Assembly (NCBI GenBank): GCA_002686195.1
Contig: NZAS01000155.1
Location: 1-18,587 of the forward strand
Length of the DNA: 18,587 nucleotides
Source: Candidatus Pacearchaeota archaeon
GTDB taxonomy: Archaea > Nanoarchaeota > Nanoarchaeia > Pacearchaeales > GW2011-AR1
Reading direction: 5' to 3'
Under the pieces are notes generated by a model. It did not search any database, was not told where the DNA came from, and worked only from the letters and a program-made list of their open reading frames with translations. The position numbers and the translations under genes are program-made. Positions 6,761 to 18,041 of the stretch are shown here, piece by piece (the stretch's first letter is position 1; each line of letters begins with the position of its first letter).

Positions 6761-7168
6761 ATGATTACAATAAATATAAATAATAAAAAGTCCATTAGAT
6801 TCAAATTGAATCAAAAGACAGAAATATTAACATTTACAAGCTATGGGGCTTTAAAGATACACCTAAAAAAATTAATTAAGTACATAGTAGAAGAAAAAAT
6901 TCATAATCTTAGGATAGTAAATAAAGTAGATGGTACTGTTAGGACATTCAACTGTAAAGCTAAAGAGATAAAGATAAATAATAAACAGAGGATTAAAAAA
7001 GTATTAAAACCTAGGTACTTACCGAATAAAATGGTAACAGCTATAAGGTCAGATAAAGATATAAAAAATAATGAACGTGAAAGGTTAGTACGTGCATGTG
7101 ATTTAGCTATAAAGTCAGGGAATATGGATAATGTTAAAAAGTATATTCAGGAAATGAATAACCTATGA
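6761..7168 (+). CDS. Hypothetical basic protein
   Basis: A 135-aa, lysine-rich protein of unknown function. The N-terminus looks beta-rich (MITININNKKSIRFKLNQK), followed by a helical segment around YGALKIHLKKLIKYIVEEK, a second beta-like stretch, and a helical C-terminus (from about 95) with ERERLVRACDLAIKSGNMDNVKKYI, which resembles a short helical repeat. No cysteine clusters or membrane segments. The ATG at 6761 has no ribosome binding site and lies 13 nt after the terminator T-tract, so expression is probably low or depends on read-through. It overlaps the next gene by 4 nt (ATGA), implying translational coupling. Confidence 0.65.
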   Translation: MITININNKKSIRFKLNQKTEILTFTSYGALKIHLKKLIKYIVEEKIHNLRIVNKVDGTVRTFNCKAKEIKINNKQRIKKVLKPRYLPNKMVTAIRSDKDIKNNERERLVRACDLAIKSGNMDNVKKYIQEMNNL

Positions 7169-8042: not shown

Positions 8043-10136
8043 ATGTCAGATAAAGTTAATAGTTTGCACCTACAACTAAATAAAAAGGGCTACATCTGCG
8101 ATGATAAGTTCAGTGTTAATTTGGGTCATGCCATTAACACTAAACCAGTCGGAGGTGCTTTTTTGTTTGGGCCTGCTGGGACAGGTAAGAGCTATCTTCC
8201 TATGATACTGAGTGAACTACTTAAACGTGAATTATTCATGTATCAATGTTCATCTGGTACAAGAGAAGATGACCTCTTATTAAAAATGTTACCATCTGAA
8301 GACACAGTAAGCGGTATCAAAATAGAGGAATCTGTAGTCTATAAGGCTGCGATTAAATCTAAAGATGAAAAGGTTGTACTTGTGTTTGATGAATGGGATA
8401 AAACAAGACCTACTGCTGATGGATTCTTCTTAGATTTCCTACAGTATGGTAGGTTATCAATACCTGGTAGGGAAGTTGGTGCTAACCTAAATAACATGCT
8501 GATATTTTTTACATCGAACAACGAAAGAGATATTAGTGAGGCGTTACTTAGACGTTTCCCTAAAATAGATGTTGAACCTCTGAGTATAGATGTAGTGTAT
8601 AAGGCACTCAACTTAACTCATAAGGGTCATACATACATAGGTAATATACTTTCGCTGTATGAGAAAACCTTACAGTCTGAAATGACTAAACCAGCAACGA
8701 TTCAGGAGCTACGACAACTGCTTGATGCTATAACATTACTTAATGCTAATGGTGATGAATGTGATTGGGATACGCTGGTTTATATGTACGTTACAAAGAC
8801 ACCTGAAAATCACGCACTGCTTAGTAAAGCTATATCAGATGGAAGTAGTAACAATAATAGAGGTAATGGTAGAATGTCTATTGATGTTGATTCATTCAGT
8901 TCTATATCAACCTCTGGTGTATCTACAACGTCTGCTAAAGGTGTAATGCCATCTCTTATTGACATAAACAAATACGATTTAGTCGTAGGTGATACTGAAT
9001 TGGAAGTTGGAGATGAGAAGATTACATGTTTACTTGAAAAGGACGATACTAACTATAGTAACAGTGTGAAGACACAGTTAGTAGAGTTAGAAGGTGAATT
9101 AACAGGTGACCCTGCTGATATAGATTGGATAAAATCTGTAAAAGGCTCATTGATTTCAACTAAACCTATTTTATTATGTGATATATCCAAACATGATAGA
9201 TTGTTTGCAGATACACGTAATAATAATACTAATAAAGCTAAAGGTGAAATATTAGTGTTTGAACCTAATGCATGTTGGGATGATATGATAGATTTAATCT
9301 CAGTTAAAAGCGACCGATTAATAATACGAAAGGCAGAAAAAGATGAAATTATAGGTCGTTATGCACATAATAGTAGAGTACATCTTGATTTTAGGTGGAC
9401 ACCTGAAACAGGTGCTGAGATTATAGCTAATGCAAGTAGGGTTGGTCATGAATCCATTAGGAATTTTGTAGGTGATGGATTAGCAGGTTGGTATAATTCT
9501 AATGTTAATTTCCTCAGTAAATACGATGTGTATGATGCCCTTGATGATAACTATGATAGGTTCTGTGATATTGGTGAACTGGTATTGAAAAGTTGTATAG
9601 GCAGTAGCAGTTACGCAAATTACGGTATCAACAAATCTCCTAATGGTTGTCAGTATTGTGATGACATAGCAGTACCTTCATACGAAGCACTGGAAAAAAT
9701 ATCAAATGTAAAATATGGTGTTAGGTTTACACGATACAAATCCAGTGGCATAGTTATCAACACATACCATAGTAAGGTGTACGGAAGAAACCACAGATGG
9801 GACGTTATGGTTACTGGACCATTTGATTCACGTATCCTTAGAATACTGTATATGTGGGGCTTATCACACTTTTACCTATACTATATGTGTAAATTGCCTG
9901 GCTTCGATGTAGCTAAACAACTGGTTAAAAAGTATAACTGGAAACGTAGCAGTGATAGAAACGGTAATAGGATGATAACTAATAAGTCGTATAAATGTTT
10001 CATCTATCCTGATTCACTTATGTTTGCAGTTGACATTACTAAAACCAAAGTTAAAAGGTGCGATAATGTTAAGCTGGACAAGTACATAACTGATGTCATT
10101 AAATGGCTGGACGGTTGGAAAGGTGCAAAAAAATAG
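8043..10136 (+). CDS. MoxR/CobS-like AAA+ ATPase with large unknown C-terminal region
   Basis: A 697-aa protein. Start is the ATG at 8043, preceded by a strong GGAGGAA; an earlier in-frame non-ATG start would overlap the previous gene by 70 nt. The N-terminal 250 residues are an AAA+ domain of the dynein-related/MoxR-CobS-CbbQ type: Walker A GPAGTGKS (43-50), Walker B VLVFDEWD (112-119), sensor-1 FFTSNN (155-160), arginine-finger-type ALLRRFP (167-173). Such ATPases are remodelling chaperones or metal-insertion motors and usually work with a VWA protein, which is the next gene here. A Ser/Asn/Gly-rich linker (about 258-290) leads to about 400 residues I cannot assign, with a CQYC pair and Trp/Tyr-rich segments near the C-terminus. 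Substrate unknown. The next gene's GTG start overlaps the final base. Confidence 0.85.
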   Translation: MSDKVNSLHLQLNKKGYICDDKFSVNLGHAINTKPVGGAFLFGPAGTGKSYLPMILSELLKRELFMYQCSSGTREDDLLLKMLPSEDTVSGIKIEESVVYKAAIKSKDEKVVLVFDEWDKTRPTADGFFLDFLQYGRLSIPGREVGANLNNMLIFFTSNNERDISEALLRRFPKIDVEPLSIDVVYKALNLTHKGHTYIGNILSLYEKTLQSEMTKPATIQELRQLLDAITLLNANGDECDWDTLVYMYVTKTPENHALLSKAISDGSSNNNRGNGRMSIDVDSFSSISTSGVSTTSAKGVMPSLIDINKYDLVVGDTELEVGDEKITCLLEKDDTNYSNSVKTQLVELEGELTGDPADIDWIKSVKGSLISTKPILLCDISKHDRLFADTRNNNTNKAKGEILVFEPNACWDDMIDLISVKSDRLIIRKAEKDEIIGRYAHNSRVHLDFRWTPETGAEIIANASRVGHESIRNFVGDGLAGWYNSNVNFLSKYDVYDALDDNYDRFCDIGELVLKSCIGSSSYANYGINKSPNGCQYCDDIAVPSYEALEKISNVKYGVRFTRYKSSGIVINTYHSKVYGRNHRWDVMVTGPFDSRILRILYMWGLSHFYLYYMCKLPGFDVAKQLVKKYNWKRSSDRNGNRMITNKSYKCFIYPDSLMFAVDITKTKVKRCDNVKLDKYITDVIKWLDGWKGAKK

Positions 10137-11149
10137 TGAATAGCACAATAAAAAGGAATTGGAGAAACTGGAACGACAAAAGTAATTCGTCTCAGCAGGA
10201 CGGTAAGTCGAACCACAATACAAATGGCTCTGGTTCTGACGGTGATGGGGGAGGTGTAAAAACCTCCCCTATCTCTATTAATATGGACTTACGCAATAAG
10301 AAGTCCTATTCACCGTATAAAACTAATAACAAAGTTAATACTGGTGGGGTTAAGGGCAAATATGATTTCAAAAAATATTTAAAGTTTGTTGATATGGGTA
10401 TGAACACATCAATAGGTAATAACAGTTTTAATATCAGTGATACTGGTTCATACTTAAAATATAACTCATGGTCAAATTCTTCACGTAGGATATATAAAAT
10501 AAACAAAAGGACTGTTAATAAATGTTTTGATATAGACCTGAAGATACTACATAAGCGGAGACTATCTAACTCTTTAGCTGTAATGGTATCTAAAATAGCA
10601 GAGGATAGAGCTGGTGAACCTACAATAGGTGATGATTATTGGAGTATTCCAGAGCTATTGAATAGGGTAGTATCTAAACAGCAGTTATCATCTTGTAAGG
10701 AAACAAGAGAGAAGGAAAGAATTATAGTTATACTTGATACATCACCCAGCTGTGCTGAAGAGGCTATATTTTATATGGATATAGCTAAGGCTTCGTGCAG
10801 TTTAAATGATTTAGAAATGTATGATGCACCTAACGGATACATAGTTAAGGCATATAACAAAAAAAATAACAAGTTTGATACATTACCTAGGAATATATTT
10901 ACTGTGTTTTCCAAATGGCAGATGTTTAAGAATAGGACAATAATATTTTTTGGTGATTACGATGGTTCAAATATACTTATTGATTCTGCAAAATTAAACA
11001 GTGTGTACTGGCTCAATCCTATGTATAACATTATACGTGATGACAGTCATCACGATAAAATCAGTGATAAGTTTGTAAAACGTGGAGGTAAAATTTTTAA
11101 GTGTAGTAATGAAAAAGATTTTATGAATGTTGTTAGAAAAATGAGGTAG
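10136..11149 (+). CDS. VWA-domain protein, partner of AAA+ ATPase
   Basis: A 337-aa product if started at the GTG at 10136, which overlaps the ATPase stop (TAGTG) and has AAAGGTG about 10 nt upstream; an in-frame ATG at 10103 would add 11 residues but has no ribosome binding site. After a Ser/Asn/Gly-rich, low-complexity N-terminus (about 13-42), the C-terminal third contains a von Willebrand factor A fold: IIVILDTSPSC (196-206) gives the MIDAS DxSxS metal site, and TIIFFGDYDGSN (268-279) fits the later conserved strand and Asp. VWA proteins beside MoxR/CobS-type ATPases act as adaptors that bind substrate through the metal site (CobT in cobaltochelatase, CbbO with CbbQ). The true target here is not visible. 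An 8-bp GC-rich hairpin lies within the 5' part. Confidence 0.75.
   Translation: MNSTIKRNWRNWNDKSNSSQQDGKSNHNTNGSGSDGDGGGVKTSPISINMDLRNKKSYSPYKTNNKVNTGGVKGKYDFKKYLKFVDMGMNTSIGNNSFNISDTGSYLKYNSWSNSSRRIYKINKRTVNKCFDIDLKILHKRRLSNSLAVMVSKIAEDRAGEPTIGDDYWSIPELLNRVVSKQQLSSCKETREKERIIVILDTSPSCAEEAIFYMDIAKASCSLNDLEMYDAPNGYIVKAYNKKNNKFDTLPRNIFTVFSKWQMFKNRTIIFFGDYDGSNILIDSAKLNSVYWLNPMYNIIRDDSHHDKISDKFVKRGGKIFKCSNEKDFMNVVRKMR
10248..10269 (+). other. GC-rich hairpin inside the VWA gene
   Basis: GGGGAGGT (10248-10255) and ACCTCCCC (10262-10269) form a perfect 8-bp stem around a 6-nt loop, in a region otherwise AT-rich. It is followed by TATCTCTATT, a poor T-tract, and an in-frame ATG at 10283. The mRNA hairpin could slow elongation or act as an attenuator; no function is proven. 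Confidence 0.6.
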
Positions 11150-11152
11150 AAT

Positions 11153-11716
11153 ATGAAATACAAAATCAGTAAGGACTATATGTATGATTCATATAATGAA
11201 TCTGATAAGGTCAATCTTTCAAAAGACATATCTAAAATTAGGTATGACAGTGAAAGTCCTAGAGAATTTTATGACAATCTCATATTATACTTTAGTGATA
11301 GACCTATAGTTGTTAAAGAGCTGGATAAGTCAATCAAAAAACTCGCTTCTGAAATAACTGGTATCAGTATACTTAAAATAATAGCTAAAGAGAGTAATCG
11401 TTTAATGAAGGTGATATTAAAAAATCCTGGTATTATATCTAAGTTCGGTGTTGAGGTAGATAAAATGGCAACTAAGGATATGTTGGATATACATAAACTT
11501 AAATTAGCTATTAGTAATAAAGGTGATGTATACATAGGTGAAGATGTGACTAATCTTGAAATGCTCTTAGGTGATAGTGGATATGATAGTTCAACTAAAG
11601 AAAGAAGTGGGTTTACTGAGGTTAAATATACATATACTAATAAGAATATAAAGTTAGATGATGTACCTGGTGTATCAATCAAAGATATAGATTTACATTT
11701 AGAAGGTGAATCATAA
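11153..11716 (+). CDS. Hypothetical protein of the AAA+/VWA cassette
   Basis: A 187-aa product starting 3 nt after the VWA stop, with GAGGTAG just upstream of the ATG, so it is probably co-translated with the VWA protein. Residues 1-50 are charged and Tyr/Asp/Ser-rich; residues 50-125 look helical (VVKELDKSIKKLASEITG, then ISILKIIAKESNRLMKVILK); the C-terminal part has KGDVYIGEDVTNLEMLLGD and a Gly/Val/Thr-rich end. No cysteines, membrane segments or known motif. The tight linkage suggests it belongs to the same functional unit as the ATPase and VWA protein, perhaps as substrate or assembly factor, but this is only from position. Confidence 0.65.
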   Translation: MKYKISKDYMYDSYNESDKVNLSKDISKIRYDSESPREFYDNLILYFSDRPIVVKELDKSIKKLASEITGISILKIIAKESNRLMKVILKNPGIISKFGVEVDKMATKDMLDIHKLKLAISNKGDVYIGEDVTNLEMLLGDSGYDSSTKERSGFTEVKYTYTNKNIKLDDVPGVSIKDIDLHLEGES

Positions 11717-12048
11717 TGTCAGATGTTAAAATATTGTCCAATGACAATGATGTATTGGAGTATTCAGAACTGTTTAATATAAGAGGTAGACTTGAAACAT
11801 ATCTAAAAGATAGGGTTGAATGTACATTCATAAGACAAGTTGATACTGGTGATGGTAAAATATCAGTATCAATAATTAATGTACATACACTCAAAAGTGA
11901 CCCAGGTTTTACGTGTGTTATATTTAGAGATAAGGATAAATCATTAGATAAGATAGAAAAATTCCTCAAATTCAGAGCCAAATCATGCGGTATAAAGAGG
12001 ATTGAAGATGAAGGCTCATTGTATAAAGACATAGTAGGTATAACATGA
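11716..12048 (+). CDS. Hypothetical protein
   Basis: A 110-aa product whose ATG overlaps the upstream stop (TAATG) with AGGTGA 6 nt before it. The central section alternates in a beta-like pattern (DRVECTFIRQVDTGDGKISVSIINVHTL) followed by GFTCVIFRDK and a C-terminal helix containing KIEKFLKFRAKSCG. This suggests a compact alpha/beta domain of roughly 100 residues. I do not recognise the family. The 1-nt and 4-nt overlaps on each side make it part of the operon running from the AAA+ ATPase. Confidence 0.65.
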   Translation: MSDVKILSNDNDVLEYSELFNIRGRLETYLKDRVECTFIRQVDTGDGKISVSIINVHTLKSDPGFTCVIFRDKDKSLDKIEKFLKFRAKSCGIKRIEDEGSLYKDIVGIT

Positions 12049-12320
12049 ATAAAATAACTAACAATTATGGACAGATTGTAGTATGTGATGGATGTAATGG
12101 ACCTTATGGTAATAACGTGAAAGGTGGTGCACTTGTAGGCTCATATGCAATGTGTGGTGAGTGTTGTGATAGGTACGATTATGATAAGTCTGACTATAAA
12201 TACGCCAATGAGGTGGACGAAATATGGGATAAAGAAAAGACCTTCAAAGATAATGTTCTTGAATATAGAGAAAGGACATATGGAAGTAGTGATTTAATAA
12301 TCAGTATAACTTCAAATTAA
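12045..12320 (+). CDS. Small zinc-ribbon-like protein
   Basis: A 91-aa product starting in an ATGA overlap. Two cysteine pairs, VCDGC (13-17) and MCGEC (36-40), the second followed directly by a further cysteine, are separated by a Gly-rich loop with GGALVGSYA. This is the layout of a small zinc ribbon (CxxC-x18-CxxC), common in short phage proteins. The C-terminal half is acidic and charged (YDYDKSDYKYANEVDEIWDKEKTF) with no clear fold. The zinc site suggests DNA, RNA or protein binding; nothing more specific can be supported. A 26-nt gap then precedes the next gene, which has its own ribosome binding site. Confidence 0.7.
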   Translation: MNKITNNYGQIVVCDGCNGPYGNNVKGGALVGSYAMCGECCDRYDYDKSDYKYANEVDEIWDKEKTFKDNVLEYRERTYGSSDLIISITSN

Positions 12321-17540: not shown

Positions 17541-17740
17541 GGACTAATGGTATAGTTGTAGTTAAGTTTACTGAATCTGAACTGAATATACTTTATGAAT
17601 CCTTAAAGTATATGCTACAAATTAAGAATCTTTCGGTGTTTGATGATGCTGATAAGTTGAAGAATGATTTAGAAGATATTAACAAATGGATATGTAATGA
17701 GAAAGAAAAAGCTAAAGAAAAAGCTAAAGAAAAACATTAA
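17537..17740 (+). CDS. Small helical hypothetical protein
   Basis: A 67-aa product starting at GTG 17537 inside the GTGA overlap. VVVKFTESELNILYESLKYML suggests a strand then helix; a second helix covers about residues 36-56; the Lys/Glu-rich end (EKEKAKEKAKEKH) is encoded by 12-bp near-repeats that are read in a second frame as the start of the next gene. The overlap is 44 nt, longer than other overlaps here. No recognised family. Confidence 0.55.
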   Translation: MRTNGIVVVKFTESELNILYESLKYMLQIKNLSVFDDADKLKNDLEDINKWICNEKEKAKEKAKEKH

Positions 17741-18041
17741 AAGAGGCAGACGCAATCGCCAACGTGGTCTTGAGCTACAGCGTAATGCTGTTAGATTAGC
17801 TAAAGACATGGGACTCAATGCATATAACCGTGATAGAGGCGGTGCTCAACATGAGATGGGTGATATAGAAATAGAAGACAAGTTTTACGGCTGTAAAAGA
17901 CGCAAGGTCATACCCAAGTGGCTCTTACCTGAAAAAAGTGAGGTGGGAGTGGTATTTAAAGCCGATAGACACCAAACCATGATTGCACTACCCCTATCAG
18001 TATACTATTTACTACTTAAACTGGCATCTGATGATGAATAA
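17697..18041 (+). CDS. Resolvase-like or KRRK-type PD-(D/E)XK nuclease candidate
   Basis: A 114-aa product starting ATG 17697, overlapping the previous gene by 44 nt; the first 20 residues are almost purely Lys/Arg/Leu/Asn. The core 'NRQRGLELQRNAVRLAKDMGLNAYNRDRGG' then 'GDIEI' (55-59) and 'GCKRRK' (65-70), 'IPKWLLPE', and a final FKADRHQTMIALPL strand matches small phage nucleases related to Holliday junction resolvases (G-D-I acidic motif, C-K-R-R lysine motif, basic helix). A Gly replaces the Glu often found two residues before the Lys, so the active site may use E58/E60 or be altered. A resolving/debranching role fits the recombination genes upstream. Confidence is limited; no structure is available. 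Confidence 0.55.
   Translation: MRKKKLKKKLKKNIKRGRRNRQRGLELQRNAVRLAKDMGLNAYNRDRGGAQHEMGDIEIEDKFYGCKRRKVIPKWLLPEKSEVGVVFKADRHQTMIALPLSVYYLLLKLASDDE

Follow-up and report, generated by a model that had tools for sequence, protein, structure and literature searches.

Two adjoining forward-strand genes in the 18,587-nucleotide stretch of DNA analyzed here (the window), encoding an AAA+ ATPase (8043-10136, 697 amino acids) and a VWA-type partner (10136-11149, 337 amino acids), probably form a single ATP-driven protein-remodeling machine of the NorQD/CbbQO kind. We put the probability of this reading at about 0.7, a figure that refers to the class of machine and not to its client, and base it on a MoxR-class ring in the ATPase, a VWA-like gene adjoining it in every testable relative, and unequal rates of change among the parts of the pair. 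The original prediction, drawn from the sequence alone, had the phage carrying its own remodeling machine with a new client, possibly host-directed or virion-directed; the machine is retained here as NorQD-like in class, and the virion-directed option is weakened by the strand on which the pair lies and by relatives in which it was not found.

Relatives were gathered with patterns taken only from the ATPase, which confirmed 44 of 181 viral matches (43 loci) and three of 50 matches on genome contigs, giving 46 loci, 43 viral and three bacterial; a first viral scan with the window ATPase alone confirmed no relative. Eleven loci end at the ATPase gene or no more than 142 bases beyond it, and in each of the 35 testable ones the VWA gene stands directly behind the ATPase gene. 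A longest-open-reading-frame (ORF) rule identified 34 of these neighbors, and the thirty-fifth (L047), missed by the rule because a longer antisense ORF lies there, was recovered by a profile search (E = 3.8e-63); as the other 34 proteins and the window's had gone into that profile, L047 is the only independent match among those 35. A related phage carrying the ATPase without the VWA gene, which the original prediction had named as evidence against itself, was not seen among the 35 testable relatives. G188/L065, whose ATPase relative sits on a very long branch, has no VWA match and was excluded from the pair counts. The four-gene linkage proposed earlier is narrowed to the ATPase-VWA pair: gene 3 (11153-11716, forward strand, 187 amino acids) has a homolog in 15 of the 46 loci, 14 of these immediately after the VWA gene, gene 4 (11716-12048, forward strand, 110 amino acids) has one in two loci (L019 and L024, where it follows the VWA gene directly), and the two occur together in none, so the conserved unit is two genes and not four. 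Database searches at E ≤ 1e-3 returned 279 ATPase and 32 VWA proteins, the window's own counted in each; with these relatives, and with DxSxS and FxDxD unchanged in every one of the 44 VWA proteins aligned, we judge that the locus is not a product of chance.

The ATPase consists of a motor (residues 1-265) and a tail of about 400 residues. It matches Pfam AAA_5 (E = 4.3e-16), as do all 34 ATPase members compared (window counted), in which residues G43, G46, T47, G48, and K49 of Walker A (GPAGTGKS, 8169-8192) and D116, E117, W118, and D119 of Walker B (VLVFDEWD, 8376-8399) are invariant. When the ring domain of the predicted model was ranked by fold, NorQ and CbbQ were the best PDB matches. The model also contains the helix-2 insert, a trait of the MoxR class, as a β hairpin (residues 80-96, 8280-8330) whose two strands (80-84 and 92-96) are flanked by helices 75-79 and 98-105, together with a pre-sensor-1 hairpin (137-140/143-146); for both hairpins the block means of the predicted local distance difference test (pLDDT) are 73-81. 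On these profile matches and this predicted fold, the ring domain is of the MoxR class and NorQ/CbbQ-like. Half of the earlier label "MoxR/CobS-type" is thereby upheld and the CobS half falls away: CobS is absent among the ten NCBIfam families matched by the 34 members at E ≤ 0.01, and TIGR01650 (CobS) was matched nowhere in the window's own record, the control being matched in two of 14 genomes. The NCBIfam family MadB_ATPase matches 34 of 34 members but far below its cut-off, the window protein scoring 40 bits where 475 are required, and literature searches gave no paper that could be tied to that family. A sequence search of solved structures returned only a Vps4 P-loop match at E ≤ 0.01; in a viral fold library no full-length match was seen among the 50 rows listed (TMq at most 0.31, at most 403 alignment columns), and hhalign showed no internal duplication of the tail (probability 0.2).

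The partner gene starts at a GTG that overlaps the ATPase stop by one base, with AAAGGTG upstream at 10119-10125; longer starts at TTG 10115 or ATG 10103 are possible, but in the alignment of relatives the protein read from the GTG begins with a nearly invariant M. The sole significant Foldseek match of the protein is a chain of a NorQD complex. Its metal ion-dependent adhesion site (MIDAS) keeps the DxSxS ... D pattern in all 44 aligned proteins, with D201, S203, S205, and C206 invariant at motif 1 (DTSPS, 10736-10750) and F272, D274, and D276 at the motif 3 strand (FFGDYDG, 10946-10966). These motifs, those of the ATPase, and the one-base overlap are all as first described. At any one position between residues 222 and 267, Thr occurs in at most 12 and Ser in at most 14 of the 44 proteins, and Asn233, within APN (10826-10834), is invariant in all 44; the partner is therefore VWA-like with a variant MIDAS and not a canonical VWA protein, and Asn233 may, from its presumed placement, stand in for the canonical threonine. 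Cysteines are invariant (44 of 44) at residues 187 and 206 (10694-10696 and 10751-10753), the second directly after DxSxS. For this protein a sequence search of solved structures gave nothing at E ≤ 1, and Pfam showed no N-terminal metallopeptidase. When the 44 VWA members were compared with NCBIfam and Pfam, libraries that include a CobT model, no family matched at E ≤ 0.1 was named CobT; this speaks less firmly against CobT than the profile results do against CobS.

Rates of change separate the motor sharply from the rest of the pair. Identity medians were taken over the same 116 pairs from 16 phages, with pairs at least 95% identical in the terminase and short sequences dropped, and the gene names used (TerS, TerL, portal, nuclease, helicase) were transferred from matches of the window's proteins. 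The medians are 71.1% for TerL, 66.0% for the portal, 55.0% for DnaB, 49.1% for the nuclease, 47.1% for TerS, and 27.7% for the VWA protein; within the ATPase they are 60.0% for the ring, 12.9% for the linker, 23.2% for tail part 1 (residues 301-465, 8943-9437), and 15.7% for tail part 2 (residues 466-697, 9438-10133), the last being close to the 15.0% obtained with shuffled whole tails. Part 1 is alignable yet divergent across phage and cellular members, and part 2 is hypervariable and in some relatives shorter or missing. The VWA protein is itself uneven, with 16.8% identity in the N-terminal 132 residues and 33-39% over the remainder (946 pairs of 44 proteins). Among 21 closer pairs (20 phage, one cellular), the ratio of nonsynonymous to synonymous substitution rates (dN/dS) was higher in the tail than in the motor in 19 of 19 pairs for which it was defined, and every value was below 1, a pattern that suggests a tail selected to work but changing fast, or swapped. 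The window VWA protein is unmatched by VWA_CoxE, which slightly lowers confidence in the machine class. Strong divergence is not unique to the ATPase tail, as a forward-strand gene for a 135-amino acid protein (6761-7168) is equally divergent, with 20.0% identity over 62 of the 116 pairs. That gene is present in 30 of 47 loci, window counted.

Among the closest known systems is NorQ/NorD, which inserts Fe into nitric oxide reductase and resembles the phage pair in ring-domain fold, adjoining VWA partner, and helix-2 insert. It differs in that NorQ chains have about 255 residues, whereas the phage ATPase adds its tail of some 400 residues after the ring domain, and in that the phage VWA protein has the invariant Asn in place of a conserved MIDAS Thr; the long tail likewise sets the phage ATPase apart from the Rubisco activase CbbQ/CbbO. 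In excerpts of PMC13036017, NorQD is described as having a finger on the VWA domain that reaches into the ATPase pore and touches the helix-2 insert; the ring rotates that domain, and the stretching of a linker in NorD remodels the client. In the same excerpts the finger-in-pore arrangement is presumed to be general for AAA+/VWA pairs. In the phage machine the ATPase would assemble as a hexamer and, by analogy with NorD, a short VWA hairpin (residues 236-251, 10841-10888, strands 238-241 and 246-249 in the predicted model) is the candidate finger that would enter the pore and meet the helix-2 insert. ATP hydrolysis would then move the VWA protein, straining a client gripped by that protein and the ATPase tail, and client recognition may be placed in the hypervariable tail, especially part 2. 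An analogy for a tail that serves as a client binder is RavA, which attaches to LdcI through its C-terminal part. Among the 16 window proteins scanned, a set that leaves out smaller ORFs and comes from what may be a fragmentary record, there is no reductase or Rubisco gene; a client of the NorQ/NorD sort might be encoded by the host.

What the machine acts on can be stated with less assurance. A constant motor with near-limitless change of tail between related phages suggests that the tail reads a client that varies between hosts or escapes, and such a client would most likely be a protein or complex of the host, engaged early in infection; the fast-changing N-terminal part of the VWA protein, taken with the hypervariable tail and the constant motor, likewise points to a client that varies between hosts. 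A host-directed client is accordingly our leading guess, held at slightly below even odds. More speculative, and in our estimate rather unlikely, is the fuller proposal that a constant MoxR/VWA motor is aimed by lineage-specific tails at different host complexes or defenses and was taken from, or is shared with, the bacterial family described below. If true, it would mean that one ATP-driven mechanism is redirected by exchangeable tails toward different host complexes or defenses. The contrast between constant motor and fast tail gives a direct handle on the function of the pair, through what the isolated tail binds.

Of the alternative clients, one within the phage's own DNA replication or recombination, with the machine loading or stripping a replisome, helicase, or recombination protein, survives best, and we regard it as doubtful. 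In the loci that hold these genes, the strand of the pair carries the VWA gene in 35 of 35 and the PD-(D/E)XK nuclease in 26 of 26, and a DnaB-like helicase is likewise found on it in 24 of 24. Among PHROG families, the ATPase is matched best by one of clamp loaders (E = 2e-8), over the AAA+ region only. However, DnaB has the intermediate median given above whereas tail part 2 sits at the shuffled level, and a dedicated helicase partner should change more slowly; the nuclease is, moreover, retained in L134, a locus without the pair.

Less likely again is a virion chaperone, in which the pair would aid particle assembly. It has precedents: excerpts of PMC7824862 report MoxR and vWA genes in Acidianus two-tailed virus (ATV; p618/p892) and in group 2.2 jumbo phages and propose virion assembly for the jumbo-phage pair, and a role of the ATV pair in tail development is cited in the parts of PMC7911831 and PMC7824862 at hand. 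The likeness is a virus-borne MoxR and vWA pair, but the jumbo-phage vWA bears the N-terminal metallopeptidase that Pfam does not show in the window protein. The virion role is weakened for the window pair by position, as the opposite strand carries every TerS ORF (36 of 36), every TerL (36 of 36), and every portal (29 of 29) in the loci that hold them. It is also weakened by six loci without the pair (L102, L111, L119, L134, L141, and L145), which have TerS and TerL in the same order and, in four cases, the portal. In this comparison, which covered structural proteins up to the portal, their identity to the pair-bearing group is 68.3% for the terminase and 63.8% for the portal (four loci), near the 71.6% and 66.3% found within that group; their TerS is more distant (37.1% against 47.2%) and the records may be fragments, L119 being a 9-kb contig too short for absence to tell. 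L134 lacks the pair from the terminase genes through to the nuclease, with other genes in between. In L102, L134, and L145, an early-strand ORF of 313-332 residues lies nearest to TerS.

The search behind these loci took the best 80 of 529 terminase relatives, of which six have at least 6 kb upstream; the ATPase is present in two (the L003 and L005 contigs) and in none of the other four, and part of it lies on two shorter contigs (L044 and L029). Nine of the 80, including the L013 contig, a known pair carrier, were chosen for whole-record search: both pair proteins were found in one and neither in eight, among them records of 57.0, 42.1, 38.9, and 32.4 kb, any of which may be a fragment. From these sequences the pair looks accessory in phages, records being possibly incomplete so that absence is no proof.

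The accessory look of the pair would suit a phage-borne module for defense or for conflict between phages, a reading that we consider improbable. The PADLOC candidate PDC-M37B matches ATPase residues 30-220 (E = 2.4e-8), and bacterial MoxR-vWA conflict systems are described in excerpts of PMC7159879; the match is limited to the AAA+ region, however, PADLOC has none for the VWA protein and the four downstream proteins, and no constant third gene stands beside the pair. A CobS/CobT cobaltochelatase that would work with host CobN in making vitamin B12, the role suggested for the phage cobST pairs reported in excerpts of PMC8651126 and PMC11288001, is very improbable, for a weak ATPase match to PHROG 249 (porphyrin biosynthesis, E = 4.3e-6) stands against the missing CobS and CobT matches described above.

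Virus-borne AAA/VWA pairs are already known, and the window pair is a new variant among them. Neighboring cobS/cobT-type ATPase and VWA genes of uncertain role occur in haloviruses and cyanophages (PMC8651126 and PMC7911831, in part), and CRP-810-type roseophages carry a cobST pair (PMC11288001, in part); these share the side-by-side ATPase and VWA genes with the present family, which differs in not being CobS by profile. By sequence comparison, the window pair is distinct from the known viral pairs in its sequence family, its long tail, its variant MIDAS, the absence of a visible peptidase, and the lack of a CobS match, and no description of its family was found in the open-license literature searched. 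Pairs of this kind in tailed viruses have so far been read as B12 or chaperone genes.

The phages carrying the pair are remote from named phages. A tblastn search of 50,697 phage records, a set that may omit records very near the window's own, gave no ATPase match at 1e-5 and no VWA match at E ≤ 1; the portal matched two records, the helicase 1277, and the terminase 241, the last at about 24-26% identity among the matches listed. The ATPase of L041 matched no named phage at 0.01. That of L040 gave 101 weak matches, 27 of 30 among the matches listed being annotated as clamp loader, and the top one, in phage S-SKS1, has no gene annotated beneath it and lies near sliding-clamp and clamp-loader genes; these were not accepted as relatives.

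The pair also occurs on three bacterial genome contigs, and these bacterial copies offer a second route to its function. In the phylum that holds SAR324, the ATPase was found in six of 52 genomes (the query's own and the SAR324 one counted) and the VWA gene in five of those six, the sixth contig ending with the ATPase; VWA profile matches reach 6e-62 to 8e-65 in L060, L061, L062, and L064, loci outside the profile build. Of the six loci (L046, L060-L064), five have an upstream gene in common, which in L046 encodes a response regulator carrying a cNMP-binding domain; a downstream gene is common to L046, L061, and L062 and encodes a MoCF-domain protein in L046. A 297-genome sample of a second phylum gave two ATPase matches: the query itself and a distant one that lacks a VWA match. 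Database relatives lie on contigs of up to 4.4 Mb, from which we conclude that some bacteria carry the family on their chromosomes. Bacterial and phage ATPases align over the ring domain and tail part 1; the bacterial ones differ in length, mostly about 480-660 amino acids among the matches listed, and in their tail ends. In a ring-domain tree the cellular label requires three changes, and support is weak where the SAR324-type clade attaches to long phage branches, so no direction of transfer follows from the tree.

The window sits inside a 24-kb viral record, for which the placement (5777-24363) and the stated length (24297) are inconsistent figures. The tight coupling noticed earlier for the two small genes is confirmed, gene 3 starting three bases past the VWA gene and gene 4 overlapping it by one base; a fifth gene overlaps gene 4 at 12045, so the run exceeds four. 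A POT1 match of gene 4 (E = 0.012) falls under the family cut-off and was not used. A scan for promoters and terminators was not informative (54 promoter-like sites against 44.7 expected, and one terminator-like site against 2.0). The fifth gene (12045-12320) encodes a 91-amino acid cysteine-rich protein (CDGCN...CGECC) that appears zinc-ribbon-like by eye and has homologs downstream of the pair in 13 of 46 loci, and a RusA-like Holliday junction resolvase (PHROG 244, E = 2.7e-5) is encoded at 17697-18041.

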